Below, piece after piece: positions 45,277-61,231 of a stretch of 62,429 nucleotides of DNA; position 1 is the stretch's first letter; each line of letters starts with the position of its first letter. The DNA is taken from IMG/VR virus record IMGVR_UViG_3300008450_009476, positions 1 through 62,429 of that record, one strand, 5' to 3'. The stretch is from a virus. The notes beneath the pieces were generated by a model. The model was not told where the DNA came from. It saw only the letters and a program-made list of their open reading frames with translations, and ran no database searches. Both the position numbers and the translations under genes were made by a program.

Positions 45277-45870
45277 ATGGCACACAAAGAACAAAAAAAT
45301 TATTTAAATAAATTAAAAGAAACGTTTCCAGATTGGTTTAAAGACAGAAAAGTTTTAGATATTGGATCTTTTGATGTAAATGGTAATGAAAAACCATGGT
45401 TCGATAATTGTGAATTCATTGGGTTAGATATTGGACCTGGTAAAGGTGTAGATGTTGTTTGTCCTGCAAATGAATATGATGCGCCAGATGAGACATTTGA
45501 CACTATAATTTCTTGTGAATGTTGGGAACACAACCCATTTTATAAGGAGAGTATACAGAATGCGGTTAGAATGTTGAAAAGTGGTGGATGTTTTATTTTC
45601 ACCTGTGCAACAACAGGAAGACCCGTACATGGTACAAAAACACAAGACAGAATAGATAGAGAAAAACGTTTTACATCACAAGGAAATTCATCTGAAAATT
45701 GGATAACGATGCCAAATGTTTTTAGAGAGAATTGGGATTCTGAATACTACAAAAATGTGACAGAACAAGATATCCGTGACTGTATTAATATCGACGAAAT
45801 TTTTTCATCATATCAATTTGAGGTCGAACCAAATCATTGTGATTTATATTTTTGGGGAATAAAAAAATAA
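45277..45870 (+). CDS. SAM-dependent methyltransferase (class I)
   Basis: 197 residues. SAM-binding motif KVLDIGSFDVNGNEK, acidic strand FIGLDIGPGKGVDVV, and FDTIISCECWEHNPF with MLKSGGCFIF, all in Methyltransf_11 order. It is the first gene of the 45-59 kb island, so it may methylate a sugar or glycan end. The acceptor is not readable. Confidence 0.75.
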   Translation: MAHKEQKNYLNKLKETFPDWFKDRKVLDIGSFDVNGNEKPWFDNCEFIGLDIGPGKGVDVVCPANEYDAPDETFDTIISCECWEHNPFYKESIQNAVRMLKSGGCFIFTCATTGRPVHGTKTQDRIDREKRFTSQGNSSENWITMPNVFRENWDSEYYKNVTEQDIRDCINIDEIFSSYQFEVEPNHCDLYFWGIKK

Positions 45871-45885
45871 TAAAATAATTTATAG

Positions 45886-47391
45886 ATGAGTCTTACAATA
45901 GTCATAAGCACCAAAAAAATTGACGAAACTTACAAAAAACACGTAAGGGAAACTTGCGGAATTAATGAGGTTGAGATTTTAATGTACGAAAATCCAAATG
46001 GTGTATCATTAACTGAGATATATAATAAAGGATTAAATGAGTCAACTAACAATATTGTTGTTTTTTGCCATGATGATATTATTTTTAATAATCAAAACTG
46101 GGGTAAAAAACTAATCAATGATTTTAATGTTTCCGGATATGGTATATTAGGCGTTGCCGGTAGTACTTTTATGTCAGATACTGGTAAATGGTGGGAAGAT
46201 TTTAGTAAAATGGTTGGAATTGTAAAACACTCTAAAGACGGTAAAACGTGGGTTAGTAAATATTCCTCTAAGTTTAATGATGTTATTGAAACTTGTTGTG
46301 TTGATGGTGTGTTTTTTGCTGTAAATAAAAACTTAATTAAAAATAAGTTTGATGAAAACGTAAAAGGTTTTCATTTTTATGATATTGATTTTAGTTTTGG
46401 TAACCATGTAAGTGGTGTTAAAGTTGGGGTTACATTTTCAGTTGAGTTAACGCACAAATCAATTGGAATGACTAACGATGAATGGGAAAAAAATAGAATT
46501 AAATTTGTTGAAAAATATAATACAATAGAAAAAATCTTACCGTTAAAAATTAAAACTAAAATTTCATATACTAATAGAGAATTCAATTTTAAATCAACAC
46601 CAAAAGTTGAGGTAATAATTCCAAACATTAATAATTACGATTTATTAACTGGATGTATAAACTCTTTTTTAAATAAATCTAATTACCCAAATTTAAGAAT
46701 AACTGTTGCAGACACAGGTAGTAATGATACGAACTTAGAAAAAATAAAAAAGTATTGCACAGATAACAATATAAAATTAATTGAATACGACTATTATCAT
46801 TTTGAAAAAATTAATAATGATGTCGTAAGAAATCACTTAGACGAAGACACTGAATTATTATTGTTTACAAATAATGATATAGAATTGATTAATGACTGTG
46901 TTTCCGAAATGGTTAACTTATATCTAAAAAATAAAAAAAATTGCGGAACAATTGGTGCTAGACTATATTTTGAAGACAATACAATACAACACGCAGGGAT
47001 AGATTTATTAGGTACAATTAATTCACAAAATCAATTTGGGTTAAGAATTGGTCATCTTGGTTATAAATCAGAATACAATTACCCTACAATGGATTTAGTT
47101 GATACTATAGGTAATACTGCGGCATTACAAATGATATCAAAAAAACTATTTTTTGATATGGGGTGTTTTCCCGAATATTATTTAGACTCTTTATCCGACG
47201 TTGAATTTAATTTAAAAACTATTTTATGGAATAAAGTAAATTGTTTTGCACACAATGCGGTAGCATATCATTTTGAGAGTTTAACTAGATTGGTTAATGG
47301 ATCAATTAAACAAGAAGATTGGGAAAGAGCAACAAAATATGTTATTGAAAATAAAACAATATTAAATAAAATAAAAAAAATCAGAGTATGA
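45886..47391 (+). CDS. Two-domain glycosyltransferase (GT2 type)
   Basis: 501 residues. The N-terminal domain (1-220) begins LTIVISTKKIDETYKKH and has VVFCHDDIIFNNQNWG, like the StrF/Glyco_tranf_2_5 group. The second domain (about 235-490) is a GT2 enzyme: VEVIIPNINNYDLLTGCINS, ADTGSNDTN, and LLFTNNDIELI (D-x-D-like NND). Two transferase domains in one chain suggest successive additions of sugars. Cytoplasmic, no membrane segment. Stop and next ATG overlap by 4 bases. Confidence 0.75.
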   Translation: MSLTIVISTKKIDETYKKHVRETCGINEVEILMYENPNGVSLTEIYNKGLNESTNNIVVFCHDDIIFNNQNWGKKLINDFNVSGYGILGVAGSTFMSDTGKWWEDFSKMVGIVKHSKDGKTWVSKYSSKFNDVIETCCVDGVFFAVNKNLIKNKFDENVKGFHFYDIDFSFGNHVSGVKVGVTFSVELTHKSIGMTNDEWEKNRIKFVEKYNTIEKILPLKIKTKISYTNREFNFKSTPKVEVIIPNINNYDLLTGCINSFLNKSNYPNLRITVADTGSNDTNLEKIKKYCTDNNIKLIEYDYYHFEKINNDVVRNHLDEDTELLLFTNNDIELINDCVSEMVNLYLKNKKNCGTIGARLYFEDNTIQHAGIDLLGTINSQNQFGLRIGHLGYKSEYNYPTMDLVDTIGNTAALQMISKKLFFDMGCFPEYYLDSLSDVEFNLKTILWNKVNCFAHNAVAYHFESLTRLVNGSIKQEDWERATKYVIENKTILNKIKKIRV

Positions 47392-48161
47392 GATTAGGAG
47401 TGAGTTATAATCTTTTCGATGGGGAAGAATTACTTGAAGGATCTATAAATCAAATAAGAAATGAAGTTGACTATATAAGTGTTGTTTATCAAAAAGTTTC
47501 AAATTTTGGAAATAAATGCGATGATAATTTAATTGATTTATTAAATGATTTAATTAAAAAAAATTTGATAGACGAATTGTTTGAGTATAAACCTATAATA
47601 CAAGGTGACGGTCATGGTCATTTGAATGAAATAACAAAAAGAAATATAGGTTTATCGTTATCATTAAAGAATAATTGTACACATCATATGTCAATGGACT
47701 CTGATGAATATTACAAACCACAACAATTTAAGTTGTTAAAAAAAGTAATGTTAGAAAATAACTATGATTCATCATTTTGTCAAATGAAAACCTATTACAA
47801 AGACAAAGATGTTGTTATTACTCCTCCGGAAGACTATTATGTTTCCTTAATTTATAAAATAAGTGATAATGATAGTTTTATTATGTCAAGACCATCACCT
47901 GTTTTGGTAGACCCAACTAGAAGAATGAATCCGGGTAAATTTAAAATCTTTAACAGAGACGAAGTTCAAATGCATCATTTAAGTTATGTTAGAAATAATA
48001 TTAGAAGAAAATTAGAAAATTCATCATCAATCAATGTTTTTAAAAATAGAATAGATTTATTAGTTAAATATCACGAAAATTGGACTTACCCAAGTGAAGC
48101 TTTAATGGCAGGGGTCACAGATAAATTTTATAAAACAGAAAAAGTTAAAAAATTATTTTAA
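47388..48161 (+). CDS. Glycosyltransferase, GT-A type
   Basis: 257 residues. The start MRLGVSYNLFDGEELLEGSI resembles 'YN-x-FDGEE-x-L' GT-A proteins found in phage and LPS clusters; the metal motif is likely SMDSDEYYKP. The middle carries PSPVLVDPTRRMNPGKF, and the C-terminus contains MHHLSYVRNNIRRKL, reminiscent of GT2/GT92-like families. Donor and acceptor unknown. Overlaps the previous gene by 4 bases. Confidence 0.65.
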   Translation: MRLGVSYNLFDGEELLEGSINQIRNEVDYISVVYQKVSNFGNKCDDNLIDLLNDLIKKNLIDELFEYKPIIQGDGHGHLNEITKRNIGLSLSLKNNCTHHMSMDSDEYYKPQQFKLLKKVMLENNYDSSFCQMKTYYKDKDVVITPPEDYYVSLIYKISDNDSFIMSRPSPVLVDPTRRMNPGKFKIFNRDEVQMHHLSYVRNNIRRKLENSSSINVFKNRIDLLVKYHENWTYPSEALMAGVTDKFYKTEKVKKLF

Positions 48162-48163
48162 TT

Positions 48164-48814
48164 ATGATTAACGATTTTTTTGATAAAATATATTGTATCA
48201 ATATAGATAGGAGAACGGATAGGTGGGAAAAATGTTTAATAGAATTTGAAAAACATGGCCTTAATGTTGAAAGATTTTCAGCAATCGATGGTAACACAGA
48301 AAATTATAATTTGGGGTACCCACACGACAACGAATTGGCCGGTTCTATTAGTCATTTAAATTTAATTAAAAAGGTTAAAGATTTAAACCTTAAAAATGTG
48401 TTGATATTGGAAGATGATGTTGAATTTGTCGAAAACGCTAATGATTTATTTGATGAATATGTAAAACAATTACCTGAAGACTGGTATGGATTACATTTTG
48501 GTGGTAATCATGTTTATGGGTTACAAAGAACAACTCAACCAAATATTGTAAAAATGAATAGATCATACGCAATTCACGCATATGCGTTAAACAATAATTC
48601 GTTTGACATTTTGATTGAATACTTGACTAAGAAAATAAACGATGTAATTCAAAATGGTAAATCAGTTATTAAAGAATCTGTTGCAGCTGATTATTTTATT
48701 GCTGATTTACATAGAATACTTAATTTTTATTGTTTTGTTCCACATATTGCGTGGCAAAAAGACGATTATTCAGATATACAAAGAAAAAATGTTAATTATA
48801 ATTTTTTAAGATAA
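48164..48814 (+). CDS. Glycosyltransferase family 25 (LPS-type)
   Basis: 216 residues. GT25 pattern: DKIYCINIDRRTDRWEK, FSAIDG, GSISHLNLIKK and the metal motif VLILEDDVEFV. These enzymes often transfer galactose or glucose in LPS/LOS synthesis. The stop overlaps the next ATG by one base. In a phage this enzyme could alter the host surface glycan or act on a virion protein. Confidence 0.8.
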   Translation: MINDFFDKIYCINIDRRTDRWEKCLIEFEKHGLNVERFSAIDGNTENYNLGYPHDNELAGSISHLNLIKKVKDLNLKNVLILEDDVEFVENANDLFDEYVKQLPEDWYGLHFGGNHVYGLQRTTQPNIVKMNRSYAIHAYALNNNSFDILIEYLTKKINDVIQNGKSVIKESVAADYFIADLHRILNFYCFVPHIAWQKDDYSDIQRKNVNYNFLR

Positions 48815-49590
48815 TGATAACAAGTTTATTACAAGGAGGTTTAGGTAATCAATTATTTCAAATTGCAACAACAACTGCGTTGGCGTTAAGAAATAATGAT
48901 GTCGCTTGTTTTGACATTGACGGACATAAAATAGGGTTGCAAGGTAGAAATGCGTCCAATTATAAACCAAATCTTTATAGAAATTTATTTAACTATAAAT
49001 TTGATACTGATATTATTTTTAATCAGAACGGACATCATTATGAAGAAATATCATATCAAGAAAATTTGAAACTTATTGGTTATTTTCAATCTGAAAAATA
49101 CTTTGAGGACTATAAAGAATATATTTTAAAACTATTTGAACCAACAGAAGAAATAGTACAATATATAAATGGAAAATATGGTGAGATTTTAAATAAAAAT
49201 ACTTGTTCAATTAATATTAGACATGGTGATTACCTAAGATTACCAAATCATCACCCGGTTTGTTCTATAGAATATTATAAAAAAGCAATCAGTCATTTTA
49301 GTGACACTACTTTTTTAATTTTTTCAGATAACATTAACTGGTGTAAATCTGTGTTTGTCGGCAGTGACTTTATTTTTATTGAAGGAGAAGAAGATTATAT
49401 CGATTTATACTTGATAAGTATGTGTAAAAATAATATAATCGCCAATAGTAGTTTTAGTTGGTGGGGAAGTTGGTTAAACAGAAATGAAAACAAAAAAATA
49501 ATAGCACCTTCAGTATGGTTTGGTCCTGCATATAGAACATGGATAACAGATGATATATACACAAACAAAATGATAAAAATATGTTACTAG
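48814..49590 (+). CDS. GT11 alpha-1,2-fucosyltransferase-like enzyme
   Basis: 258 residues. GT11 motifs: LLQGGLGNQLFQIATTTAL at the N-terminus, SINIRHGDYL (H-x-G-D-Y), FLIFSDNINWC and NSSFSWWGSWLN. GT11 enzymes move L-fucose from GDP-fucose onto galactose. The donor-making enzymes Gmd and a Fcl-like synthase are 8-10 kb downstream in the same island. A modified GDP-deoxy sugar is an alternative donor. Overlaps the FkbM gene by 10 bases. Confidence 0.85.
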   Translation: MITSLLQGGLGNQLFQIATTTALALRNNDVACFDIDGHKIGLQGRNASNYKPNLYRNLFNYKFDTDIIFNQNGHHYEEISYQENLKLIGYFQSEKYFEDYKEYILKLFEPTEEIVQYINGKYGEILNKNTCSINIRHGDYLRLPNHHPVCSIEYYKKAISHFSDTTFLIFSDNINWCKSVFVGSDFIFIEGEEDYIDLYLISMCKNNIIANSSFSWWGSWLNRNENKKIIAPSVWFGPAYRTWITDDIYTNKMIKICY

Positions 49591-50189
49591 ATTTTAATTC
49601 ATTAATCAAAAAATACAATATGGATATAAAAGGTGTAATTCATATTGGGGCACATCATGGTCAAGAACATTCATTATATAAAGATAATAATGTAAAAAAT
49701 ATTGTTTATTTTGAACCACTATCGTCTAATTTTAATATACTTAAAAGTAATGTTGGTGAAGACGCAATTTTATATAATTGCGCATTAGGTGATACGGAAG
49801 GGGAAGTTGAAATGTTTGTTGAGACTGCAAATCGAGGTCAATCGTCTTCAGTACTGGAACCAGAATTACACAAAAAACAATATCCTCACATTGTGTTCCA
49901 TAATAAAGAAACTGTTTCGATGAAAAGGTTAGATGATATTGGATTACCAAATGAATATAATTTTATCAACATTGATGTCCAAGGATACGAATTAGAAGTT
50001 TTTAAAGGCGGTTCTGAATACTTGAAGACTATTGATTATATAATAACAGAAGTTAATAGAGACGAGGTATATAAAAATTGCCCTATGGTTGAGGATTTGG
50101 ATAGATTTTTATCTACTTATGGTTTCGAGAGAGTCGAAACTACTTGGGACGGAATAACTTGGGGTGACGCTTTTTATGTAAAAAAATGA
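49581..50189 (+). CDS. FkbM-family methyltransferase
   Basis: 202 residues. KGVIHIGAHHGQEHSLYK (SAM-binding), IVYFEPLSSNFNILK, and FINIDVQGYELEVFKGG are the FkbM signature motifs. FkbM enzymes O-methylate sugars or other hydroxyls and are frequent in glycan islands. It overlaps both neighbours by 4-10 bases. The product could be a methylated deoxyhexose cap. Confidence 0.85.
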   Translation: MLLDFNSLIKKYNMDIKGVIHIGAHHGQEHSLYKDNNVKNIVYFEPLSSNFNILKSNVGEDAILYNCALGDTEGEVEMFVETANRGQSSSVLEPELHKKQYPHIVFHNKETVSMKRLDDIGLPNEYNFINIDVQGYELEVFKGGSEYLKTIDYIITEVNRDEVYKNCPMVEDLDRFLSTYGFERVETTWDGITWGDAFYVKK

Positions 50190-50980
50190 GTATAAAATTA
50201 CCCATATTTGACAATATGTTTTCACATACACATACTAGTAGTTGGTATAATAAATCTTCTATTATGGAATGGGACAGGAATCTAAATTTGAATTATATAT
50301 TCACTACAAATCCTAATGTCGATTTTAAAGACAAAAAAATTTATATGTGGTTAATAGAATCTCCGGAAATTACCACAAATGATTACCAATATGTAAAAGA
50401 TAATGCAAATAAATTTGACAAAATTTTTACTTTTAATAGGGAAATATTAGAATCCATATCAAGTAGTAGGTTTACTCCAATTGGTGGATGTTGGATAAAT
50501 GAATCTGATAGGAAAATTCATGAAAAAAATAAATTAGTATCTATAATTTCATCCGGTAAAAACCAAACTAGTGGCCATAAATTTAGAAATCAGATAGTAG
50601 ATAAATTTTCAAATATAATAGATTTATATGGTAAGGCACATAAACCTATAGAATTCAAAATAGAATCTTTAAAGGATTACAGGTTTCAAATTGTTGTAGA
50701 GAATAACAAATCAGATTTTTATTTTACTGAAAAATTAATTGATTGTTTTCAAACTGGGGTGATACCAATTTATTGGGGTTGCCCGTCTATACATAATTTT
50801 TTTGATTCTAATGGTATTATAATGTTTAATACAATAGAGGAATTATATTCAATTTTAAAATCGTTATCTAATGACTTATATGAATTTAAAATTGAATCGG
50901 TAAGAAATAATTTCGAAATTTCTAAAAATTATTTAATTGCTGAAGACTACATTATAAAAAATTATTTAAAAGAATTGTGA
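50186..50980 (+). CDS. GT10-like fucosyltransferase (first of two)
   Basis: 264 residues. The C-terminal half carries the GT10 motif FQIVVENNKSDFYFTEKLID followed by GVIPIYWGCPSI, as in alpha-1,3/1,4-fucosyltransferases using GDP-fucose. The N-terminal acceptor domain (WLIESPEITTNDYQYV) is divergent. It is adjacent to a second GT10-like gene, so two linkages or a tandem duplication with divergence are possible. Confidence 0.78.
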   Translation: MSIKLPIFDNMFSHTHTSSWYNKSSIMEWDRNLNLNYIFTTNPNVDFKDKKIYMWLIESPEITTNDYQYVKDNANKFDKIFTFNREILESISSSRFTPIGGCWINESDRKIHEKNKLVSIISSGKNQTSGHKFRNQIVDKFSNIIDLYGKAHKPIEFKIESLKDYRFQIVVENNKSDFYFTEKLIDCFQTGVIPIYWGCPSIHNFFDSNGIIMFNTIEELYSILKSLSNDLYEFKIESVRNNFEISKNYLIAEDYIIKNYLKEL

Positions 50981-51942
50981 AAAAATTAAACATAAATTTT
51001 TTGGGGTATGGAGACAATGAACAATCATATTTGAATCCTAATTTATCTAACTGGTATACTGATAACATTTTTTTATTTTTATTAAAAAAAAAGTACGATG
51101 TGTCTTTGGTTAAAGATAATCCGGATATTCTAATCTATACCTTGGTTAATAATAACCACTTGAATTTTAATAATTGCGTAAAAATATTTCACACAGAAGA
51201 ACCCGGTTTTTGGAATAAATCAAATTATTTTGAATATTACTCATCACATGATAGGTTTGGTTTATCCGCACAAGATGCAAATTTAGTATTGTCGTCTTAT
51301 TACATAGATAATGAAAATAATTTTAGATTCCCATCCTTTTTATTATACTACTACCAAATGATTTTAGATGGGAGAATACCCTGTTTTGATTTTTTTTTCA
51401 ATGATAGAAAAATTACTGATGAAAGTTTATTTGATAGAAAGTTTTGTTGTTACATACATAGAAATAATAGACAAGATATGTTTAGGGTTAAATTTTTAGA
51501 AAAATTATCTAAATATAAAAAAGTAGATATCATAGAAAACATTCCAGGCCATTCATATGAAAAAACAGAATTCGTTAAGAAAAATTATAAATTTTGTTTT
51601 GGTATGGAAAATAATAGTCAGGATATTAATTATTACCCTAACATTAAAAATTCTAATTACGTCGATATTGGTTACACCACAGAAAAAATAATAGAACCTT
51701 TTTGTTCTAACACAATACCATTATATTGGGGTAACCCTTTAATAAAAAATGATTTTAATAACGATATGTTTATTAATTGGCACGATTATAAAAATGACGA
51801 ATTGATGATTGAAAAAATAATAGAAATAGATAATGATAAAGAAAAATATTTTTCATATTTAAATGGAACTGTCTTCAATAAAAATAAAATTGAAGAGATT
51901 TTGAACAATTTTATTAAAAAAATAGAATCACTTATCACATGA
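50977..51942 (+). CDS. GT10-like fucosyltransferase (second of two)
   Basis: 321 residues from a GTG start in a 4-base GTGA overlap with the preceding stop; no ATG is close. The GT10 core is YKFCFGMENNS, IGYTTEKIIEPFCSNTIPLY and WGNPLI. It is longer than its neighbour, and the N-terminal part contains YIHRNNRQDMFRVKF and HTEEPGFW, typical of bacterial GT10. Donor probably GDP-fucose or a related GDP-deoxyhexose. Confidence 0.8.
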   Translation: MKKLNINFLGYGDNEQSYLNPNLSNWYTDNIFLFLLKKKYDVSLVKDNPDILIYTLVNNNHLNFNNCVKIFHTEEPGFWNKSNYFEYYSSHDRFGLSAQDANLVLSSYYIDNENNFRFPSFLLYYYQMILDGRIPCFDFFFNDRKITDESLFDRKFCCYIHRNNRQDMFRVKFLEKLSKYKKVDIIENIPGHSYEKTEFVKKNYKFCFGMENNSQDINYYPNIKNSNYVDIGYTTEKIIEPFCSNTIPLYWGNPLIKNDFNNDMFINWHDYKNDELMIEKIIEIDNDKEKYFSYLNGTVFNKNKIEEILNNFIKKIESLIT

Positions 51943-52784
51943 AAACTATAAAAATATACAATCATGCACATTATGGGGATATTTTTTATTCTCGAATATT
52001 AATTAATGCACTGACTCCACATTTTAATATAGAATATTATCACAGTCAATTAGGTTTAATTTTAAATGACCTTCCTAATGTTTTAGAATTTACTTATATA
52101 CCAAAAACTTTTGACATGAATCTTAACTACGTTAAAAATGGAATAGTAAATGCATGGATAGGTCAAAATTATATGTCGTATGTTGAAAATGAACAAAGAT
52201 GTAGTTTTAGTAATCATTTTAAACTAGTTAAAAATATATGCAATGAATTAGAAATTAATTTAAAAAATCCCTTAGAATATCTTCCATATGTAAATTACCA
52301 AAACTTATCAAATATAAATCATCTTGAAGATAAAATGAATTATTATAAAATAAAATATGATAAAACCATTTTAATATGTGACGGAAACATAAAATCGGGT
52401 CAATCTGAAAATTTTGATTTTAGTAGTATCATCATAAAGTTAGCAAACAAATATAAAAATTATTTATTTTTATCCACTAATAATAATTTTAATCTTGATA
52501 ATGTAATATCGACACATCCGAATTTAACATCCAAATTACCTGATTTGTTAGACATAAGTTACATTTCAAAATTTTGTGATGTAATCATTGGTCGAGCATC
52601 AGGACCTTTTTGTTATACTCAGACCTCTGAAAATTTATTTAATAAAGAAAAAATATTTATATCTTTTACCCACAATGAATTTGAAGGTAATTTTTTAGAG
52701 GAGTCAACTTGTAAAAAAATATGGTCTAACAATTTTATTTTAGAATCCATATATGATACAATTGATAGTAATTTAAAATTTTAA
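51939..52784 (+). CDS. Putative GT-B glycosyltransferase
   Basis: 281 residues. The N-terminus (YNHAHYGDIFYSRILINAL) has the GD-x-x-x-x-x motif of GT9/heptosyltransferase-like enzymes. The C-terminal half (FCDVIIGRASGPFCYTQTSE) resembles the donor-binding side of GT-B folds. No direct family name is certain. Overlaps the upstream stop by 4 bases; a 14-base gap follows. Confidence 0.5.
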   Translation: MKTIKIYNHAHYGDIFYSRILINALTPHFNIEYYHSQLGLILNDLPNVLEFTYIPKTFDMNLNYVKNGIVNAWIGQNYMSYVENEQRCSFSNHFKLVKNICNELEINLKNPLEYLPYVNYQNLSNINHLEDKMNYYKIKYDKTILICDGNIKSGQSENFDFSSIIIKLANKYKNYLFLSTNNNFNLDNVISTHPNLTSKLPDLLDISYISKFCDVIIGRASGPFCYTQTSENLFNKEKIFISFTHNEFEGNFLEESTCKKIWSNNFILESIYDTIDSNLKF

Positions 52785-52798
52785 TAAAAATATTTGAC

Positions 52799-53413
52799 AT
52801 GAAAAAAAGATTAGTTGTTGCACATTATAATGAAGATTTAGATTGGTTAAAAAATATTAACAGTGATGTTGAAATTGTAATTTATCATAAAAATCATGAT
52901 AAAAAATTAACGTACAATGATTGTTTAAAGATAAATGATAACGAATATTTATTATCAAATGTAGGTAGAGAATCTCACACATACTTAATGCATATGATTA
53001 ATTATCACGATAATTATTGTGATATTGAATTTTTCTCACAAGGGTATCCGTTAGAGTACGATGTTGTTAATTTAGTTAATAGTGATAATATTCCTGAATA
53101 TAAACAGTACACCAATTTTTATAGAAATTTTGAATCAATAAATGGTTTTAATGTACCGCATATGAAAGATGATGGGTATCCGGACACAAGAGGTATATGG
53201 GATAATCTATTTAGTTATGAACCACCAAATATAACTGAAATCGTACCTCACGGGTATATTAAATGTGATAGGAACACATTAATGTTTCATAATATAGATA
53301 CATATAAAAAATGTTTGACTTATTTTAAAGACAACAACCCTAAAAATCTTTATGGTTGGTCTTTTGAATATTTCTGGGCGTTACTTTTCAATAAAATACA
53401 TGAAAATAAATAA
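52799..53413 (+). CDS. DUF3431-like putative glycosyltransferase
   Basis: 204 residues. Motifs VVAHYNEDLDWLKNI, IVIYHKN, NVGRESHTYLMHMINYHD and IEFFSQGYP match the DUF3431 pattern, a GT-A-like family common in fungi, algae and phages with unproven activity. It sits inside the island between two probable transferases, supporting a role in glycan making. Confidence 0.7.
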   Translation: MKKRLVVAHYNEDLDWLKNINSDVEIVIYHKNHDKKLTYNDCLKINDNEYLLSNVGRESHTYLMHMINYHDNYCDIEFFSQGYPLEYDVVNLVNSDNIPEYKQYTNFYRNFESINGFNVPHMKDDGYPDTRGIWDNLFSYEPPNITEIVPHGYIKCDRNTLMFHNIDTYKKCLTYFKDNNPKNLYGWSFEYFWALLFNKIHENK

Positions 53414-53420
53414 TATTACG

Positions 53421-54116
53421 ATGAAAATAAAAGTTTTAAGTTTTTCACTTTACGGAAATAATCCAATATACACACATGGGTGTATAAAAAATGCTGAATT
53501 ACATAAAAAACATTTTGTGGATTGGGAAATGTGGGTCTATTATAATAATACTGTTTCACAAAATGTTATTGATTGTTTAAACGAATTAGGTTGTAAATTA
53601 ATAAATACAAATCAAGACAGGAATTTAATGAATTCATTGTGGAGGTTTTTACCAATATGTGATGAAAATGTGGAATATTTTATAAGTCGTGATTGTGATT
53701 CAAGAATAAGCGAAAGAGATGAGGTTGGAGTACAAGAGTGGATAAATTCAGGAAAAAAATTTCATATAATACGGGATCATCCAATTGGTCATAATTGGCG
53801 AATGAACGCCGGAATGTGGGGGTCTAGAAATTTAGCGTTTCCAAATTTTTACGAAAGTATGGAATCTTATTTAAACACAAATAATAGACAATCAGATAAA
53901 AGTATAGACCAATGTTTTTTAAGAGATATTATATATCCTTTTGCTGTTAGTGATGTTATGGTACATGATGAATATTTTAATTACGAAGGACACGGGACAA
54001 ATATAAAAAGAGATAGGAAACTTGATGATTTTGCATTTATTGGTGAATCTGTGGATGAAAACGACAACCCAAGAGGAGACCAAAGAAGTCCGATTATCGC
54101 AAGGTATGTTGGGTAA
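53421..54116 (+). CDS. Putative GT-A glycosyltransferase
   Basis: 231 residues from the ATG at 53421; upstream in-frame ATGs at 53352 and 53400 overlap the previous gene. Motifs: IKVLSFSLYGNNPIYTHG, FISRDCDSRISERDE (D-x-D) and IRDHPIGHNWRMNAGMWG, which look like a nucleotide-sugar binding GT-A domain seen in phage and viral clusters. The acceptor is unknown. It overlaps the tentative short frame at 54106. Confidence 0.65.
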   Translation: MKIKVLSFSLYGNNPIYTHGCIKNAELHKKHFVDWEMWVYYNNTVSQNVIDCLNELGCKLINTNQDRNLMNSLWRFLPICDENVEYFISRDCDSRISERDEVGVQEWINSGKKFHIIRDHPIGHNWRMNAGMWGSRNLAFPNFYESMESYLNTNNRQSDKSIDQCFLRDIIYPFAVSDVMVHDEYFNYEGHGTNIKRDRKLDDFAFIGESVDENDNPRGDQRSPIIARYVG

Positions 54117-54243
54117 AATAAATCTTATTGATAAATTTTTAAACACACTATTGACATTATACGATAAAAACACTATTATTTATAATAGTTCAAAAATTTA
54201 TAGTGATGATGGTTTACAAATCCATAATAAACACTATAGATAA
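54106..54243 (+). CDS. Tentative short frame (45 aa), possible gene remnant
   Basis: 45 residues from ATG 54106, overlapping the previous stop by 11 bases; contains LIDKFLNTLLTLYDKNTIIY. It fills most of a 137-base gap between two transferase genes. It could be a real small gene, a frameshifted tail of the upstream gene, or leftover from a deleted transferase. Confidence 0.25.
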   Translation: MLGKINLIDKFLNTLLTLYDKNTIIYNSSKIYSDDGLQIHNKHYR

Positions 54244-54253
54244 TTATAAATTC

Positions 54254-54940
54254 ATGATTTATATCTATCATCATTTAGGTTTAGGGGATCATATCATTTG
54301 TAATGGATTGGTTAGATTTTTACAAAAAAAACATAATCAAGTATCTTTATTTTGTTATCAACATAATATTGAAAATGTTTCTTTTATGTATTCTGATAAC
54401 GAAAATATTAAGTTAATTCCAGTCAACAGTGATTATGAGTGTAAAACCTTTATTCGAGTAAATAATTTAAATACAAATAATTTATATAAAATTGGGTTTT
54501 CTGAATTAAGTAAATACTTACCATCAATAAAATTTGACGAGGCATTTTATAAAATCGCAGGAATAGATTTTGAGTCAAGGTTTAATGAATTTTATATTCC
54601 AAGAAACAGAAAAAAAGAGTTAGAAGTTTATAAAGAGTTAAACCCTAATGACGAACCTTACATTTTTTTACACGAAGACCAAACAAGAGGGTTACATATT
54701 AATCGTAGTAAAATACCAAGTAATATAAAAATTATTGAAAATAATATAAAATATAATATTTTCGATTTATTAACTGTTTTTGAAAATGCACATGAAATAC
54801 ACTTAATGCAGTCTTCAATTAAAGATTTAATAAATTCATACAAAATGGATAAACCAAAAATATTCTTACATAACTACGTTAGAAACTATGCAGAGGATTT
54901 AAACTCAATAGGATTGAATAAAATATATGAAATTAATTAA
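54254..54940 (+). CDS. GT9-like (heptosyltransferase-fold) protein
   Basis: 228 residues from ATG 54254, chosen because the family motif begins right there (MIYIYHHLGLGDHIICNGLV). The G-x-GD-x-I motif and following helix match GT9 N-terminal domains. The C-terminal part (FENAHEIHLMQSSIKDLI) corresponds to the 'E-x-x-x-x-MD-S' zone. It is shorter than true GT9 enzymes (about 330), so activity is uncertain. Confidence 0.55.
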   Translation: MIYIYHHLGLGDHIICNGLVRFLQKKHNQVSLFCYQHNIENVSFMYSDNENIKLIPVNSDYECKTFIRVNNLNTNNLYKIGFSELSKYLPSIKFDEAFYKIAGIDFESRFNEFYIPRNRKKELEVYKELNPNDEPYIFLHEDQTRGLHINRSKIPSNIKIIENNIKYNIFDLLTVFENAHEIHLMQSSIKDLINSYKMDKPKIFLHNYVRNYAEDLNSIGLNKIYEIN

Positions 54941-54941
54941 A

Positions 54942-55289
54942 ATGAATCTTGGTGAAAAAATCGAAGATATTATTAAAAACACAACACATAATATCTTAAA
55001 TAAAAATAAAAATGTTGACTTACCTGAAGATATCATTGAAACAGATAATTTAGGTGAGGTAATTGAAAAATTATCTATTCTACATTGTAGAATGTGGTAT
55101 TTAGAGGACGCAATAAGTGATGCGACTGATGACTCCGAAATCGCAGAATTAAAACGCAAAATAGACATATGTTTTAAAGTAAAAAGACCAAAATATGTTC
55201 AGGCAATAAATAGAATGGTAGAGAATTCAATAATAACCGGAAAGTCTCTCTTGGAAGATTCGGTTAAGCACTACAAAGGTTTTAATTAA
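54942..55289 (+). CDS. DUF4254-like small protein
   Basis: 115 residues from ATG 54942, one base after the previous stop (an in-frame ATG at 54927 overlaps it). The helical core LGEVIEKLSILHCRMWYLED and the later IDICFKVKRPKYVQAIN resemble DUF4254, often found near LPS-transferase genes. Function unknown. It precedes the nucleotide-sugar section of the island. Confidence 0.5.
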   Translation: MNLGEKIEDIIKNTTHNILNKNKNVDLPEDIIETDNLGEVIEKLSILHCRMWYLEDAISDATDDSEIAELKRKIDICFKVKRPKYVQAINRMVENSIITGKSLLEDSVKHYKGFN

Positions 55290-55291
55290 AA

Positions 55292-56086
55292 ATGAATTTA
55301 GTAATAGGGAATACTTCACAAATCAGTCATTACTTTCCAAATTCTTACGAAAAAATTTCTTCAAGGAATATTGATTTCAAGTCTATTAAGAACAAGAAAT
55401 ATAAGAGAATTTATCTTACGTTCGCAGAACAAAGAACATTTTTAAATGAAGATGAATCTTTTTTTCTTAAAACTAATTTTGATTATACAATTTTTGTTAT
55501 AGACGAACTAAAAAATTATTGTGATAATATTATAATTTTTTCTACGTCTGAATTATGGAATAATTATGATTCCGCAGTATCAGTCGATATGAAATATGAC
55601 TATAACTATTCGCCATATATAAAATCTAAAGAAGTACTATGTAACTACATAAATGAAAAAAAATGCGAGTATAAAAATGTAATTATAATTTATCCTTTTA
55701 ATTTCAATACACCATATAGAAATAAAAACTTTCTTTTTGGGAAAATATTCGATTCTATCATAAATAGAAAAAAGATAAGTGTTGGTGATTTGAATTTTTA
55801 TAGGGATTTAATTCACCCTTCGGTTATTGTCAATAATTCAATAGAGACAAATCAAGATTTATTGATTGGAGGTGGAGAACTAATAAATTTATATGATTTC
55901 ATAAATGATTTATATGCCCTTTATAATCTCAAATTAAATGATTATATTTTAATGGATAACGTCAATAATCTTAAAAATAAAAGGGAGAATTACTATTCCA
56001 AAATAATATATTCTTCTTATAAAGAATTAATCGATTTAACAAGTAATGATTTACAAAAATATATCCTTGGTCAAGGACACCATTAA
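55292..56086 (+). CDS. NAD-dependent epimerase/dehydratase-like protein (divergent SDR)
   Basis: 264 residues. It begins MNLVIGNTSQISHYF in place of the usual T-G-x-x-G-x-x-G, so the cofactor loop is degenerate. IIIFSTSELWNNY and YSPYIKSKEVLCNYI (Tyr-x-x-x-Lys) match the SDR catalytic area, and DLIHPSVIV plus LINLYDFINDL match the C-terminal part of extended SDRs. It could reduce or epimerise a GDP-keto sugar. It overlaps the DegT-fold gene by 41 bases. Confidence 0.6.
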   Translation: MNLVIGNTSQISHYFPNSYEKISSRNIDFKSIKNKKYKRIYLTFAEQRTFLNEDESFFLKTNFDYTIFVIDELKNYCDNIIIFSTSELWNNYDSAVSVDMKYDYNYSPYIKSKEVLCNYINEKKCEYKNVIIIYPFNFNTPYRNKNFLFGKIFDSIINRKKISVGDLNFYRDLIHPSVIVNNSIETNQDLLIGGGELINLYDFINDLYALYNLKLNDYILMDNVNNLKNKRENYYSKIIYSSYKELIDLTSNDLQKYILGQGHH

Positions 56087-57206
56087 TGAAAAACATCTAT
56101 CAGATTTGATAGATTGGTTGAAAACGAACCCAAAATTAACCAAAGGTGAACTAAATGTTGAATTTGAAAAAAAATGGTCTCAATGGTTAGGTTGTAAATA
56201 CTCAGTATATCTTAACTCAGGTTCTTCTGCTAATCTTGCGATGATATATTCTTTAATTTTATCTAAGAAGTTGAAGAATAAAAAAATAATTGTACCATCT
56301 GTTTCTTGGGTTACTACGGTTGCTCCCGCAATACAACTTGGACTTGAACCAATAATGTGTGATTGTGATAAAGATAATTTAGGTTTAGACATTGAACACT
56401 TAAAAAAATTGATAATTGAACATAACCCTTCTTGTATAATATTAGTTCATGTTTTAGGAATACCAAATCACATGGATGAGATTCTTTCATTATGTGATGA
56501 AAATGACATTTATTTACTTGAAGACACTTGTGAATCCGTTGGTTCAAAATACAAAGAAAAAAAACTAGGTACTTTTGGTACAATGTCATCATTTTCATTC
56601 TATTTTGGTCACCACATTTCAACTATAGAAGGTGGAATGGTGTCAACAAATGATGAAGATTTTTATCACCTTTTGTTATCAATTAGAAGTCATGGATGGG
56701 ATAGGGACTTACCCGAAAATAAGAAAAACAATCTGAGATTAAATTACGAAGTAGATGATTTCAGGGCGTTATATACTTTTTATTATCCCGGATTTAATCT
56801 TAGAAGTACAGATTTACAAGCATTCATTGGTTTGAAACAAATGGAAACTATTGATGAAATTGTAACAAAAAGAAAAAATAATTTTGACCTTTATAATAGT
56901 TTAATTAAAAATGGTATTTGGAAAATTAAACCACCAATTGAGTCATTTGTTTCAAACTTCGCATATCCCATAATTACAGAAAATATAAAGGAATTAGTTA
57001 AAGAACTACAAGAAAAAAATGTAGAATGTAGACCACTAATTTGTGGATCAATGTCGGAACAACCATTTTGGTACGAAAGTTATGGAAAAACAATTTTACC
57101 AAATGCAACTAGAGTTCATAATTTGGGATTATATCTACCTAATCATAGTGAACTAACTCAAAATGAAATTGAATTTATTTCAGATATCGTTAACAAAACA
57201 CTTTAA
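56046..57206 (+). CDS. DegT-fold enzyme with His for PLP-Lys: ColD-like GDP-sugar 3-dehydratase
   Basis: 386 residues. DegT/DnrJ/EryC1 motifs: YLNSGSSANLAM, WVTTVAPAIQLGLEP, LLEDTCESVGSKY and SFSFYFGHHISTIEGGMVS. In aminotransferases this last block carries the PLP-binding Lys; here that position is His189 (codon 56610-56612). The same replacement is known in ColD, which removes the 3-OH of GDP-4-keto-6-deoxymannose on the way to colitose. Directly downstream is Gmd, which makes exactly that substrate. The assignment as dehydratase rather than aminotransferase is a strong inference. Confidence 0.8.
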   Translation: MIYKNISLVKDTINEKHLSDLIDWLKTNPKLTKGELNVEFEKKWSQWLGCKYSVYLNSGSSANLAMIYSLILSKKLKNKKIIVPSVSWVTTVAPAIQLGLEPIMCDCDKDNLGLDIEHLKKLIIEHNPSCIILVHVLGIPNHMDEILSLCDENDIYLLEDTCESVGSKYKEKKLGTFGTMSSFSFYFGHHISTIEGGMVSTNDEDFYHLLLSIRSHGWDRDLPENKKNNLRLNYEVDDFRALYTFYYPGFNLRSTDLQAFIGLKQMETIDEIVTKRKNNFDLYNSLIKNGIWKIKPPIESFVSNFAYPIITENIKELVKELQEKNVECRPLICGSMSEQPFWYESYGKTILPNATRVHNLGLYLPNHSELTQNEIEFISDIVNKTL

Positions 57207-57226
57207 AAAATAAAAAAAACAAAAAT

Positions 57227-58195
57227 ATGAAAAAAGCTATTATAACAGGTATAAATGGACAAGACGGTTCATACTTATCAGAGTTTTTACTTGATAAGGG
57301 ATACGAAGTTCATGGTACACTTAAAAGAAATTCTGTATCTGAAAATCAAACGGCTAGACTTGATTCTGTATACGATAGAATTATTTTACACTACGCAGAT
57401 ATGACTGATTTGTCATCTCTGATTCGTACTATACAAAAAGTGATGCCTGATGAAATTTATAACTTAGCTGCACAGTCTCATGTAAGAATATCTTTTGACC
57501 AACCAATTTATACAGCAAACGTGACAGGACTTGGAACATTGAATCTACTTGAGGCGGTAAAACTTGTAAAACCTGATATAAAAATTTATCAAGCATCTTC
57601 ATCGGAAATGTTTGGAAATAATATTGATGACGATGGTTTTCAAAGAGAAACAACGCCTATGTGCCCAGTATCACCTTACGGATGTGCAAAAGTTTTTAGT
57701 TATAACATAAGTAGAAATTATAGGAACTCATATAATATGTTTATTTCGAATGGAATATTATTTAATCATGAATCACCTAAGAGAGGGACAAATTTTGTGA
57801 CAAATAAAGTTTGTAAAGAAGCGGTAAAGATAAAATTAGGTCTTAGTAAAGAATTAAAACTAGGGAATTTAAATGCGACGAGAGATTGGGGTCACGCTAA
57901 AGACTACGTTGAGGCTATGTGGTTAATATTACAACTCGATAAACCTAATGATTTTGTATGTGCGACAGGAATTTCTCATTCGGTACGTGATTTATGTGAA
58001 TATGTGTTTTCCAAATTAGGTTTAAACTGGGAAGACTATGTTAGTTTAGATGAAAAATTCTTAAGACCTGAGGAGTTGAACGACCTTAAAGGAGATTCAA
58101 CTAAATTAAAAACTTTAACTGGTTGGAAACCGGAATATACTTTTGAATCTATGTTAGATGAAATGATAACCTATTGGTTAGATAAATTAAGTTGA
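57227..58195 (+). CDS. gmd: GDP-mannose 4,6-dehydratase
   Basis: 322 residues. Rossmann motif IITGINGQDGSYLSEFLL, VHGTLKRNS, EIYNLAAQSHV, YQASSSEMFG, and catalytic YGCAKVFSYN (Tyr-x-x-x-Lys) with NHESPKRGTNFVT and NLNATRDWGHAKDYVEAMW. All are hallmarks of Gmd. It turns GDP-mannose into GDP-4-keto-6-deoxymannose, the branch point to GDP-fucose and GDP-colitose. GDP-mannose must come from the host. Located between the ColD-like and Fcl-like genes. Confidence 0.93.
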   Translation: MKKAIITGINGQDGSYLSEFLLDKGYEVHGTLKRNSVSENQTARLDSVYDRIILHYADMTDLSSLIRTIQKVMPDEIYNLAAQSHVRISFDQPIYTANVTGLGTLNLLEAVKLVKPDIKIYQASSSEMFGNNIDDDGFQRETTPMCPVSPYGCAKVFSYNISRNYRNSYNMFISNGILFNHESPKRGTNFVTNKVCKEAVKIKLGLSKELKLGNLNATRDWGHAKDYVEAMWLILQLDKPNDFVCATGISHSVRDLCEYVFSKLGLNWEDYVSLDEKFLRPEELNDLKGDSTKLKTLTGWKPEYTFESMLDEMITYWLDKLS

Positions 58196-58207
58196 TGAAT
58201 TTAAATA

Positions 58208-59110
58208 ATGAGAAAATTATTAGTAACTGGTGGAAAAGGGTTAGTGGGTTCCGCAATAAATGCTGAAATAAAGATAGGAAGGGAATACAATCTAATTAAC
58301 AGGGAAGAATGTGAAAATATGTTTGATATTTACAAACCTACACACGTAATTCATTGTGCAGGTAAAGTTGGTGGGATTGGTGGTAATATGAGTTTGAAAG
58401 GTGAATTTTTTTATGATAATATCATGATAAACACAAACGTAATAGAATCAGCAAGAAAAAGTGGTGTTAAAAACTTAATTGCGTTCTTGTCAACATGTAT
58501 TTTTCCTGATAATATCGAATACCCTCTGACTGAGAAAAAAATTCATTTAGGTCCACCTCATACATCAAATGACGCGTATGCTCACGCTAAACGTATGTCT
58601 GAGGTACAAATCAGGGCGTATAAAGAACAATATGGTCTAAATTATTCATCAGTTATACCAACTAACATTTATGGTCCTAATGATAATTTTTCATTAACGA
58701 ATGGTCATGTTGTACCTATGTTAATGCATAAGATTTATTTAGCACAAAGAAACAATGAAGATTTAGTCGTATGGGGTAGTGGTAAACCACTAAGAGAGTT
58801 TATTTATTCAAAAGATATTGCTGAACTTTCAGAATGGGCTGTTGAAAATTATAGTGAACCTGAACCAATAATATTTTCTAATTCAGAAGAGATAAGTATT
58901 TCAGATTTAGTTGATTTATTAGTTAAAGAGTTTAACTTTAAAGGTAAAGTAAAATTTGATTCAACTAAACCTGATGGACAATTTAGAAAACCGTCAGATA
59001 ATAGTAAATTAAAATCATATCTACCCGAATTTCAATTTACACCAATAGAAATTGGAATAAAAGAAACGGTAAAATGGTTTATTGAAAACTATGAGAATGT
59101 AAGAAAATAA
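58208..59110 (+). CDS. fcl: GDP-L-fucose synthase / colitose synthase-like (Fcl/ColC)
   Basis: 300 residues. LLVTGGKGLVGSAI (NADP), VIHCAGKVGGIGGNM, STCIFPDN, and YAHAKRMSEVQ (Tyr-x-x-x-Lys) with IPTNIYGPNDNFSLTNGHV are GDP-fucose synthase motifs. Fcl epimerises and reduces the Gmd product to GDP-fucose. ColC enzymes are close relatives, so with a ColD-like neighbour it may instead finish GDP-colitose. It ends the island; the small basic gene converges 8 bases away. Confidence 0.85.
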   Translation: MRKLLVTGGKGLVGSAINAEIKIGREYNLINREECENMFDIYKPTHVIHCAGKVGGIGGNMSLKGEFFYDNIMINTNVIESARKSGVKNLIAFLSTCIFPDNIEYPLTEKKIHLGPPHTSNDAYAHAKRMSEVQIRAYKEQYGLNYSSVIPTNIYGPNDNFSLTNGHVVPMLMHKIYLAQRNNEDLVVWGSGKPLREFIYSKDIAELSEWAVENYSEPEPIIFSNSEEISISDLVDLLVKEFNFKGKVKFDSTKPDGQFRKPSDNSKLKSYLPEFQFTPIEIGIKETVKWFIENYENVRK

Positions 59111-59325: not shown

Positions 59326-61188
59326 ATGGAAGATTTACTAACCCAACGAATCAATTACGCCAGTATAAACGTATTTAAGAATTACTGTCCATTAGAGAAC
59401 AGAAAAGAATATATTTCTGACCCTATCAGTGGAATGGATGATTTTTTTATACAACCAGCAATAGTACGGAATATTAATACTAATAAAGTTAAATCCACTT
59501 ACTTACATTATCCCAAAAATAAAAAAAGAACAAAATATTTTTACTCTGATAATCCAAATGGTGAAAACATAAATCTTTTTGTGTGTTCAAAAAAACTCCG
59601 TTCAACCGATAACATACATGTCTATGATGATACTACTTTCATAACCGATAAAGAAAGACAAATAAAAAGACATTTTGGTAACCCCTTTTCGTCTGTTCAT
59701 TTTACAACAATAGAAAGGTCAATAAGAAGACATGGGGATAAGGTAACATTCAAATTATATGTTCACAATAAAATGCGGGATGTTAACGAAATTTATTTTA
59801 AAAAGAGTTATCGAGTTATTTCATTAACAGTGAATATGGTGACAGGTAATTTTACAATAAGTAACATTCAAGATGGTAGAAATATAAAACAAAAAAGATT
59901 TAGGGTTAATTCATTTTTAGAGTTAGAACAAATGGTAAAAACGAATAACACTCCTTTCAATATTTCCAATTATACAGATAGAGGGATAGTACAAGAGAAA
60001 TTAGACATAAAAAAAATATTTGATAACAAAATATTCTATAAGGTCGTATCGGATGTTTTCAATGTACCTAATATAAATGAAAAAAACATTTTTGATAATT
60101 TACTAAAGTTTTTCATTGAAACCAAAAAAATTAAAACACCAGATAACTATAAAGACCTATTAATTTATCATTACCCTACGGAGAAATATTTGAAAAAGAA
60201 TGATAGAAAATTAATCACGTCTATTTTAGATTTTTATGGAATAAAATCAAAAGTTCTTAATAAATTTTTACACAAGTATACCCAAATCAATATACCTGCA
60301 CTTGCTAGGTTGTGTTATTTGTTTGGTGACAATTTTCAGAAATATGTTGGTAATATAAACCCTGACGCATTTATTAGTTTAAATAATCCGGACACTTGGA
60401 TTATGAATGCAAGTATGTTCAAAGCAAATTTCTTTCAGTTTAAAAATCACAACTATAAAATAAGTGAAGAAGAAAAAGATAATATATTGAAAATAATAAT
60501 TGGTGGTAGAAAGAAGTTTGTAAATAGGGATAACCATCTTCATATTGATGAAGAGTTTGTAAATCTTTTATCAGACCATTTCAATATGTTACAAAAAATA
60601 AGAGAATATGACCCTCAAATAAAAATGAGAGCAACGGATTATACTACCTTCCATAATGAACATCAGGAATTAGCGAAAATGGTTGCAGCAATTAATAAGG
60701 GTTGGGTTACCGAATATAAGTTTAATCAACAAATGTTAGATGATGTTCAAAAACCTGTAGATTTAAAAATAGAACTTGATAATTGTAGTTATGGTGAAAT
60801 AACTTTTTATCCAGTAATATTAAAGAGAGAAGAAGAATATATTGAGGAAGGTAATTTTATGCATCATTGTGTTGCAACTTATGCGGATAAAGATAAATCA
60901 ATCATAATATCTATAAGAACTGAAGATAAATCTGATAGAATAACTTGTGAAATTGATTGTCAAACAGGACAATGTATTCAAGCAAGACACTTTTGTAACA
61001 AACCAGCACCAGGTGATATGGAACTAGCGTTAAATGAAATATTAGTAAAGACAAAAAAATATGCTAGATTGGGGATGTTACATAATATTGAAAAAAGAAA
61101 AGTACCAATCATCATTAATGGTGTTGAAATATATAGAGAAATTGAACCAACACTTCAAGAACATCTATTTGATATTTTACCGATTTAA
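59326..61188 (+). CDS. PcfJ-like protein, paralog A
   Basis: 620 residues. The C-terminal domain has the PcfJ pattern: EEYIEEGNFMHHCVATYADK (about residues 502-521), IISIRTEDKSDRITCEI and QCIQARHFCNKPAPG. The central region includes KYLKKNDRKLITSILDFYGI, ARLCYLFGDNFQKYV and a long helical part. PcfJ-type proteins occur on conjugative plasmids and phages, without a settled function. The next gene is a shorter relative with parallel motifs, so a tandem duplication is likely. Confidence 0.75.
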   Translation: MEDLLTQRINYASINVFKNYCPLENRKEYISDPISGMDDFFIQPAIVRNINTNKVKSTYLHYPKNKKRTKYFYSDNPNGENINLFVCSKKLRSTDNIHVYDDTTFITDKERQIKRHFGNPFSSVHFTTIERSIRRHGDKVTFKLYVHNKMRDVNEIYFKKSYRVISLTVNMVTGNFTISNIQDGRNIKQKRFRVNSFLELEQMVKTNNTPFNISNYTDRGIVQEKLDIKKIFDNKIFYKVVSDVFNVPNINEKNIFDNLLKFFIETKKIKTPDNYKDLLIYHYPTEKYLKKNDRKLITSILDFYGIKSKVLNKFLHKYTQINIPALARLCYLFGDNFQKYVGNINPDAFISLNNPDTWIMNASMFKANFFQFKNHNYKISEEEKDNILKIIIGGRKKFVNRDNHLHIDEEFVNLLSDHFNMLQKIREYDPQIKMRATDYTTFHNEHQELAKMVAAINKGWVTEYKFNQQMLDDVQKPVDLKIELDNCSYGEITFYPVILKREEEYIEEGNFMHHCVATYADKDKSIIISIRTEDKSDRITCEIDCQTGQCIQARHFCNKPAPGDMELALNEILVKTKKYARLGMLHNIEKRKVPIIINGVEIYREIEPTLQEHLFDILPI

Positions 61189-61208
61189 AACTACAAAAAG
61201 TCATAATG

Positions 61209-61231
61209 TCCATATATATTTTATATATGGA
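61209..61231. promoter_or_regulatory. Perfect 10-bp inverted repeat covering the next start codon
   Basis: TCCATATATA (61209-61218), spacer TTT, TATATATGGA (61222-61231). The ATG at 61227-61229 lies in the right arm, so the RNA hairpin would hide the start codon. Alternatively it is a protein-binding operator. Confidence 0.45.

Follow-up and report, generated by a model that had tools for sequence, protein, structure and literature searches.

A phage-borne sugar-making island with a DUF4254–SDR–ColD unit predicted to yield a 3,6-dideoxy sugar

INTRODUCTION

Why would a phage carry its own genes for making and transferring rare sugars? The question is posed by IMG/VR virus record IMGVR_UViG_3300008450_009476, which was analysed here over its full 62,429 bases (GC 29.4%; the window), and in which 17 consecutive plus-strand open reading frames (ORFs) fill positions 45,277–59,110 (the island). 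An earlier reading of this DNA, the original prediction, had described a glycosylation gene run of about 14 kb on the plus strand, with methyltransferases, GT2, GT25, GT11, two GT10, DUF3431, Gmd, Fcl and ColD-like proteins. Pfam searches and the ORF listing agree with that description, and they support the presence, within one phage run, of a GDP-deoxyhexose pathway from GDP-mannose together with enzymes of fucosyltransferase families. Phage sugar islands are already known; what appears to be new stands at the centre of this one, where genes for a DUF4254-like protein, a compact short-chain dehydrogenase/reductase (SDR) and a ColD-like enzyme form a unit.

RESULTS

The island encodes a histidine-type ColD

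The genes on which the argument turns lie at the downstream end of the island:

54927..55289, plus strand: DUF4254-like small helical protein (Pfam 20 bits, below the cut-off of 27)
55292..56086, plus strand: compact extended SDR, akin to GDP-mannose dehydratases and reductases (GDP_Man_Dehyd 20.5 bits, below the cut-off of 27)
56046..57206, plus strand: putative ColD-like GDP-4-keto-6-deoxymannose 3-dehydratase (DegT 242.6 bits, cut-off 19.8; His at the position of the pyridoxal phosphate (PLP) lysine)
57227..58195, plus strand: Gmd, GDP-mannose 4,6-dehydratase (GDP_Man_Dehyd 396.7 bits, cut-off 27)
58208..59110, plus strand: member of the Fcl-type GDP-4-keto-6-deoxymannose epimerase/reductase family (Epimerase 159.2 bits, cut-off 20.9)

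The best PDB match of the DegT-family protein is Escherichia coli ColD (232.8 bits), with E1 at 155.6 bits. Its His189 aligns with H188 of E. coli ColD, in place of the catalytic PLP lysine. Among 19 distinct homologues from 29 loci, found with search patterns that avoid the motif, His is kept in 18 (17 main copies plus the additional one of locus L024), the lone exception being a 26% paralogue in L017 that has Lys. In a larger set His occupies the position in 67 of 67 viral ColD clusters, a count that is partly circular because the deep-scan pattern contained the HH motif, so that 18 of 19 is the fair figure. According to a review, it is chiefly the change from Lys to His that sets 3-dehydratases apart from aminotransferases (PMC8987622). 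The histidine thus makes 3-deoxygenation the best reading of this protein, strengthening the ColD-like assignment of the original prediction, and a 3,6-dideoxy GDP-sugar of the colitose type is predicted beside GDP-fucose.

Two other assignments were rejected. A perosamine-type aminotransferase is ruled out, since the protein lacks the catalytic lysine. An E1-type 3-dehydratase with a [2Fe-2S] cluster ranks behind ColD in the PDB search, and the cysteines of the window protein (positions 50, 105, 107, 130, 150, 162, 328 and 333) do not fit what we take to be the E1 spacing. As a separate observation, Cys105, Cys107 and Cys150 are common to the phage ColD proteins and their nearest bacterial kin and are missing from E. 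coli ColD; in the viral clusters C150 is found in 67/67, C105 in 64/67 and C107 in 55/67, and a metal or cluster site at these residues is possible.

The gene upstream of ColD is mostly an SDR or an Fcl/ColC-type gene

In a deep ColD scan of IMG/VR, 560 stretches matched a pattern; a relative is encoded in 559 of them, and 80 were retained. The viral locus set used below combines 95 loci from two scans, collapsed to 67 at 95% ColD identity; because the loci are truncated, absences within 10 kb are weak. Directly upstream of ColD stands an SDR gene in 28 of these 67 distinct loci, an Fcl/ColC-type gene in another 28, some other gene in 10 and a ColD-like gene in 1. No SDR is in view in any of the 28 Fcl-slot loci. 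Of the 28 SDR-slot loci, 15 also carry an Fcl-like gene at a separate position. For 11 of the remaining 13 (all but L161 and L169), the window Fcl was searched against the whole contigs, up to 268,739 bases long, with no match in any of the 11; as a positive control, the same query found 6 of 6 control sequences, down to 38% identity. DUF4254 is in view in 19/28 SDR-slot loci versus 2/28 Fcl-slot loci (Fisher p 4e-6, which is only descriptive because related loci are not independent).

A ColD tree that took in 31 of the 67 viral clusters nests L122, an SDR-slot locus, with the Fcl-slot loci L012 and L123 (support 99/97), which suggests that SDR and Fcl/ColC-type genes have been exchanged on closely related ColD backgrounds and have equal roles. 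Since the upstream slot is held by either one gene type or the other, the compact SDR probably replaces ColC.

The association is also visible from the DUF4254 side. A DUF4254 scan gave 43 viral contigs, some near-identical, with a ColD relative within 6 kb in 40 and an SDR in 35; three contigs (L107, L118 and L119) show neither in view. Before DUF4254, relatives often carry the 281-aa protein, frequently as its immediate neighbour, or the 254/245-aa pair described below; the 245-aa protein adjoins DUF4254 in several of them. The DUF4254 protein has 34 invariant positions in an alignment of 23 sequences and a helical structure model (pTM 0.59), for which Foldseek found nothing under E 1; a profile search of the PDB found nothing under E 0.1, and 50,697 phage records contain no relative. 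For the 281-aa protein, its profile has no PDB relative and no match to the 245-aa profile (probability 0.8). A scan with the single SDR sequence returned only the window's own contig. In the literature search, the name DUF4254 occurred in one paper, and the DUF4254–SDR–ColD unit appears to be new.

The SDR resembles GDP-mannose dehydratases and reductases

The SDR is modelled with confidence (pLDDT 92.3, pTM 0.89), and its best Foldseek matches are GDP-mannose 4,6-dehydratases (4.6e-15), with GDP-4-keto-6-deoxymannose reductases among the first 50. VIA-align gives Z values of about 22–24 to many extended SDRs alike, so that the fold does not fix the reaction. By hhalign, the SDR matches Gmd (probability 96.5, E 8e-10) and has no clear match to the Fcl/ColC profile (probability 1.5, E 0.034). 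Among 18 sequences, no change is seen at Thr85, Tyr109 or Lys113, the last two forming the YxxxK motif, and Glu87 is almost invariant. In a weak alignment with Fcl, the epimerase cysteine falls opposite Ser and the histidine opposite a gap. We propose that the SDR is a ketoreductase acting after ColD. Because the epimerase Cys and His are lacking in the alignment, the boldest reading is a 4-ketoreductase without epimerisation, which would give a 3,6-dideoxy-D-hexose rather than L-colitose.

Gmd and Fcl complete the core

Eleven of the 13 PDB matches of Gmd below 1e-20 are GDP-mannose 4,6-dehydratases (5uzh among them), the two weakest being other GDP-sugar SDRs, and the protein carries the motifs SSSEMFG and SPYGCAK. 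The closest PDB entry to Fcl is the GDP-L-fucose synthase 4e5y; another is 4bkp, which we take to be the human GDP-L-fucose synthase. Residues S95, C97, Y124, K128 and H167 of Fcl are invariant with E. coli Fcl and ColC, presumably as the catalytic Ser/Tyr/Lys and the epimerase Cys/His. A tree places the window Fcl with the Fcl-like proteins of L012 and L025, which occupy the ColC slot immediately next to ColD (support 99/97). Given this placement, the predicted product of Fcl may be fucose, colitose or both.

Transferases turn over around a recurrent core

The upstream genes of the island are as follows:

45277..45870, plus strand: class I methyltransferase (Methyltransf_11/23; Methyltransf_11 28.7 bits, cut-off 21.2)
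45886..47391, plus strand: two-domain GT2 protein (Glyco_tranf_2_5 99.5 bits, cut-off 27; Glycos_transf_2 54.6 bits, cut-off 23.3)
47388..48161, plus strand: 257-aa protein, no family; possibly GT-A-like, judged by eye from MDSDEYY
48164..48814, plus strand: GT25 glycosyltransferase (57.2 bits, cut-off 24; PHROG 2835, glucosyltransferase)
48814..49590, plus strand: GT11, alpha-1,2-fucosyltransferase family (78.8 bits, cut-off 23.9)
49581..50189, plus strand: FkbM-type methyltransferase (73.4 bits, cut-off 22.7)
50186..50980, plus strand: GT10, fucosyltransferase family (39.9 bits, cut-off 23.9)
50977..51942, plus strand: second GT10 copy, GTG start (41.7 bits, cut-off 23.9)
51939..52784, plus strand: 281-aa protein, no Pfam family and no PDB match; GT-B-like by eye only
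52799..53413, plus strand: DUF3431 protein (38.4 bits, cut-off 25)
53352..54116, plus strand: 254-aa protein, no family; it has a DxD by eye and probably starts inside the listed ORF
54203..54940, plus strand: 245-aa protein, no family; true start probably internal

All 17 ORFs are open and closely packed: 9 of the 16 junctions overlap, by 1–62 bases, and the other 7 are gaps of 2–86 bases. Nearly all named families score above their curated Pfam cut-offs. The proteins starting at 47,388, 51,939, 53,352 and 54,203 have no family above cut-off, so that the label 'GT-B-like' in the original prediction, which no profile supports, is unconfirmed.

Comparison of the island across relatives, which the original prediction had called for, shows a donor core that recurs and transferases that change. 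Within the 67 viral loci, Gmd is found in 55, an Fcl-like gene in 53 and the SDR in 30; GT11 is found in 29, a match to the GT10a profile in 20, GT25 in 7 and FkbM in 5, with GT10 or GT11 in 36. Relatives of the two-domain GT2 protein occur in 25 loci and those of the 254-aa, 281-aa and 245-aa proteins in 19, 16 and 14, respectively; the 257-aa protein is matched in 1. Recurrent donor genes with changing transferases would suit a diversified glycan. Four of the 11 contigs that lack an Fcl match (L122, L153, L176 and L187) have GT10 or GT11 near the SDR-slot ColD, which hints that these transferases may use the dideoxy sugar as a donor.

No multi-pass membrane protein stands near the core

Hydropathy predicts no membrane segment in any of the 17 island proteins, and across the 67 viral loci (1.23 Mb) six or more such segments are predicted for 0 of 1,192 ORFs of at least 150 aa. 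In 29 bacterial ColD loci, 32 of 349 ORFs reach that number, and 16 of the 29 loci have such proteins. The initiating transferase PF02397 was found in 0 of 15 phage contigs, which are fragments, versus 9 of 14 cellular controls. The lack of a flippase- or polymerase-like protein and of PF02397 leans toward cytoplasmic glycosylation of a phage product and is not proof of it. Separately, loci L006–L011, L015, L016, L018, L028 and L030 encode a 631–661-aa protein with three predicted membrane segments, 6–8 kb downstream of ColD.

Mucin-like Thr-Pro stalks occur in window proteins at 2–4165, 8509–11376 and 23784–25004, and Thr-Pro repeats are also found in four ORFs of a related contig of 272,437 bases (L033, L034, L036 and L040). 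One of the window copies sits on a protein with four predicted membrane segments.

The island lies in a phage genome, probably of a Bacteroidota phage

The window agrees exactly, at a constant offset, with contig G001 (100,147 bases) over its first 2,224 bases and over 16,384 bases of its right part; the comparison took in the parts of G001 in L002, L031 and L032, and the right stretch starts inside the island. Upstream of the window, G001 encodes baseplate wedge proteins, a DnaB-like helicase and ribonucleotide reductase, and downstream a thymidylate synthase. The window itself encodes a RuvC-like resolvase, a primase, an SbcCD-like pair and a sigma factor, and the following genes complete the context:

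20790..21467, plus strand: head maturation protease
59326..61188, plus strand: PcfJ-like protein flanking the island, outside the pathway (50.5 bits, cut-off 25)

The 272,437-base contig has relatives of 17 of 23 compared non-island window proteins, at 30–69% identity, and holds its own version of the island. Nine of the 15 contigs with a ColD match the prohead protease PF03420, and none of 14 cellular controls does; G001, a fragment, has no match, which counts against phage origin. A host contig wrongly joined to phage sequence, one of the refutations named in the original prediction, is rejected on the strength of the phage genes on the island flanks and the PF03420 matches.

Shine-Dalgarno-like words precede 3 of 48 window genes, hand-picked from the ORF listing, versus a mean of 2.96 at random positions, and several proteins of L032 start with signal peptides that seem, by eye, to end in AQ, SQ or GQ. 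Scarcity of Shine-Dalgarno sequences and such signal peptide ends are typical of Bacteroidota. For most of the large aquatic phages described as moraphages, the predicted hosts are Bacteroidota, and four of their core ortholog groups are putative glycosyltransferases (PMC12619734). Taken together, these observations indicate that the host is probably a member of the Bacteroidota.

Around the island, Pfam found nothing above cut-off for eight large neighbouring proteins, PADLOC gave a single weak match among 10 proteins (a methyltransferase to mad2), and no tRNA gene was found in the window. A lone N4/N6 DNA methylase gene lies just before the island (43964–44707, minus strand). Within 59326–62429, a second ORF, which by eye looks like a tandem paralogue, comes after the PcfJ-like gene and is truncated where the window ends. 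Between the SbcD-like and SbcC-like genes, a 190-aa protein (16941–17513) consists mostly of IVKEVPVEKIVEKE-type repeats and is probably a coiled coil.

DISCUSSION

Proposed pathway and its target

We infer the products, the donors of GT10 and GT11, a protein acceptor and the benefit to the phage from gene content, in the following scheme. First, Gmd would turn host GDP-mannose into GDP-4-keto-6-deoxymannose. From this branch point, Fcl would make GDP-L-fucose, and ColD would remove the 3-hydroxyl to yield GDP-4-keto-3,6-dideoxymannose. Reduction of this intermediate by the neighbouring compact SDR (or by Fcl) would give a GDP-3,6-dideoxyhexose of the colitose or tyvelose kind. In the cytoplasm, GT10, GT11, GT25 and GT2, with the uncharacterised proteins, would then assemble a short, branched glycan on a phage protein, and its capping would fall to the FkbM and class I methyltransferases. 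The virion might thereby be masked or its adsorption changed. The sugars are most likely attached to the phage's own particles, with the large Ser/Thr/Pro-rich window proteins as candidate acceptors; that the island as a whole is a phage-run soluble glycosylation line acting on a phage product is a reading we hold with middling confidence.

In its boldest form, the scheme has an SDR without the C5 epimerase residues in the place of ColC, acting as a Gmd/RMD-like 4-ketoreductase, so that a large group of uncultured phages would place a GDP-linked tyvelose-type sugar, a type otherwise known CDP-linked, on their virions, with DUF4254 as a carrier or adaptor. We regard this version as unlikely.

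Several observations weigh against the scheme or parts of it. DUF4254 is out of view in 9 of the 28 SDR-slot loci. The window Fcl misses the NCBIfam equivalog cut-off for GDP-L-fucose synthase (238.6 versus 500 bits) and, from its position in the tree, could itself serve ColD. For some bacterial members of the ColD clade (many in L055–L068), Gmd is not within the fetched stretch, so that the ColD substrate is not certain, and 3-dehydratases acting on other nucleotide sugars may belong to the same clade. The candidate acceptors have no direct tie to the enzymes. Phages rarely carry multi-pass membrane proteins, which makes the absence of such proteins weak evidence against use of a host flippase. 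Finally, comparable cyanophage clusters have been read in print as makers of host surface polysaccharide (PMC7824862, PMC9602691).

This last point belongs to the strongest alternative, in which the enzymes, drawing on the lipid carriers, flippase and polymerase of the host, remodel its outer membrane polysaccharide during infection and thereby keep other phages from adsorbing. Authors working on jumbo phages read such clusters as O-antigen makers directed against other phages (PMC7824862); in addition, the O-antigen cluster of E. coli O55 combines a GT11 with Gmd, ColC and ColD, and Pfam describes GT25 as a lipopolysaccharide biosynthesis family. However, neither flippase- or polymerase-like proteins nor PF02397 turned up in the phage loci and contigs examined, in contrast to 16 of 29 bacterial ColD loci with multi-pass membrane proteins, and a new sugar unit would presumably have to suit the resident flippase. 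We consider this alternative possible and less probable than glycosylation of a phage product.

A set that makes a soluble or secreted glycoconjugate, supports host physiology or is partly decaying cargo without present function is improbable: transferase content does vary strongly among relatives, as cargo would, but the 17 ORFs are open and closely packed and the donor core keeps its active-site residues across divergent phages. Least probable of all is decoration of the phage DNA with hypermodified bases against restriction, a role that other phage glycosyltransferases have, since, although the window carries DNA methyltransferases, a hydroxymethylase was not seen, the thymidylate-synthase family matches in 5 of 10 contigs include four with the PFN motif that we take to mark the synthase type (the fifth, a split match in G031, yielded no such motif), and we know of no DNA modifiers in the GT10, GT11 or FkbM families. 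DNA glucosylation is nonetheless the first reading offered for the moraphage glycosyltransferases (PMC12619734).

If glycosylation of a phage product is right, a large set of uncultured phages runs its own rare-sugar factory, in which donor synthesis recurs and transferases are shuffled, and virion glycosylation by such phages becomes directly testable. DUF4254 would gain a functional context, and a new enzyme for 3,6-dideoxy sugars would be added.

Comparison with known systems

The complete set is less unusual in phages than the original prediction held, because phage Gmd/Fcl islands have been published and Synechococcus phage ACG-2014f has Gmd, Fcl, ColD and GT11 together. Gmd matches were found in 177 of 50,697 phage records, and the 559 IMG/VR stretches with ColD relatives point the same way. 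The available text on the T4-like Synechococcus phage S-SCSM1 lists Gmd, Fcl and several fucosyltransferases in a cell-wall gene set and does not mention ColD, the SDR or DUF4254 (PMC9602691). In the literature on colitose and phage, judged by title, a phage-encoded GDP-colitose-type branch was not found.

The colitose cluster of E. coli O55:H7 CB9615 (L048) is a close cellular counterpart, with 45% identity to the window Gmd, 35% to ColD, which is likewise His-type, and 32% to GT11. Its ColC gene overlaps ColD, and the cluster also holds a flippase and a polymerase (the ColC and ColD labels are ours; the record gives GDP-L-fucose synthase family and DegT family). In the window, by contrast, the compact SDR takes the place of ColC, with DUF4254 next to it and no multi-pass membrane protein in view.

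Among phages, ACG-2014f (KJ019091, L197, 4044–7957) has a row of four genes, for Gmd, an Fcl-type protein, a His-type ColD and GT11. Its epimerase is nearer to E. coli Fcl (49%) than to ColC (38%), and tblastn found no SDR or DUF4254 match within the 13-kb stretch. The ACG-2014f ColD, 34% identical to the window protein and labelled hypothetical or aminotransferase, is by its active site a His-type 3-dehydratase, a re-annotation that extends to that group of records. Synechococcus phages S-CAM7 (33%) and S-H68 (30%) have a relative of the window ColD that is already labelled a 3-dehydrase or 3-dehydratase of the CDP-4-keto-6-deoxyglucose kind, and in the 642-kb phage LR756502 an Fcl-type gene and a His-type ColD adjoin.

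Virion glycosylation itself has precedents. In chlorovirus PBCV-1, the viral Gmd and an epimerase/reductase make GDP-L-fucose for virion glycans; this is a virus of a eukaryotic alga, and the available part of the report does not mention ColD (PMC4691112). Mycobacteriophage virions carry glycans as well (Freeman 2023, cited in PMC12619734), and for the moraphages the accessible text of that paper names no sugar pathway. In gene content, the window resembles PBCV-1 and mycobacteriophage virion glycosylation, combining nucleotide-sugar genes with those for soluble transferases. The sugar-making core recurs in many uncultured phages, and known cyanophages carry it as well, for the most part annotated under different names.

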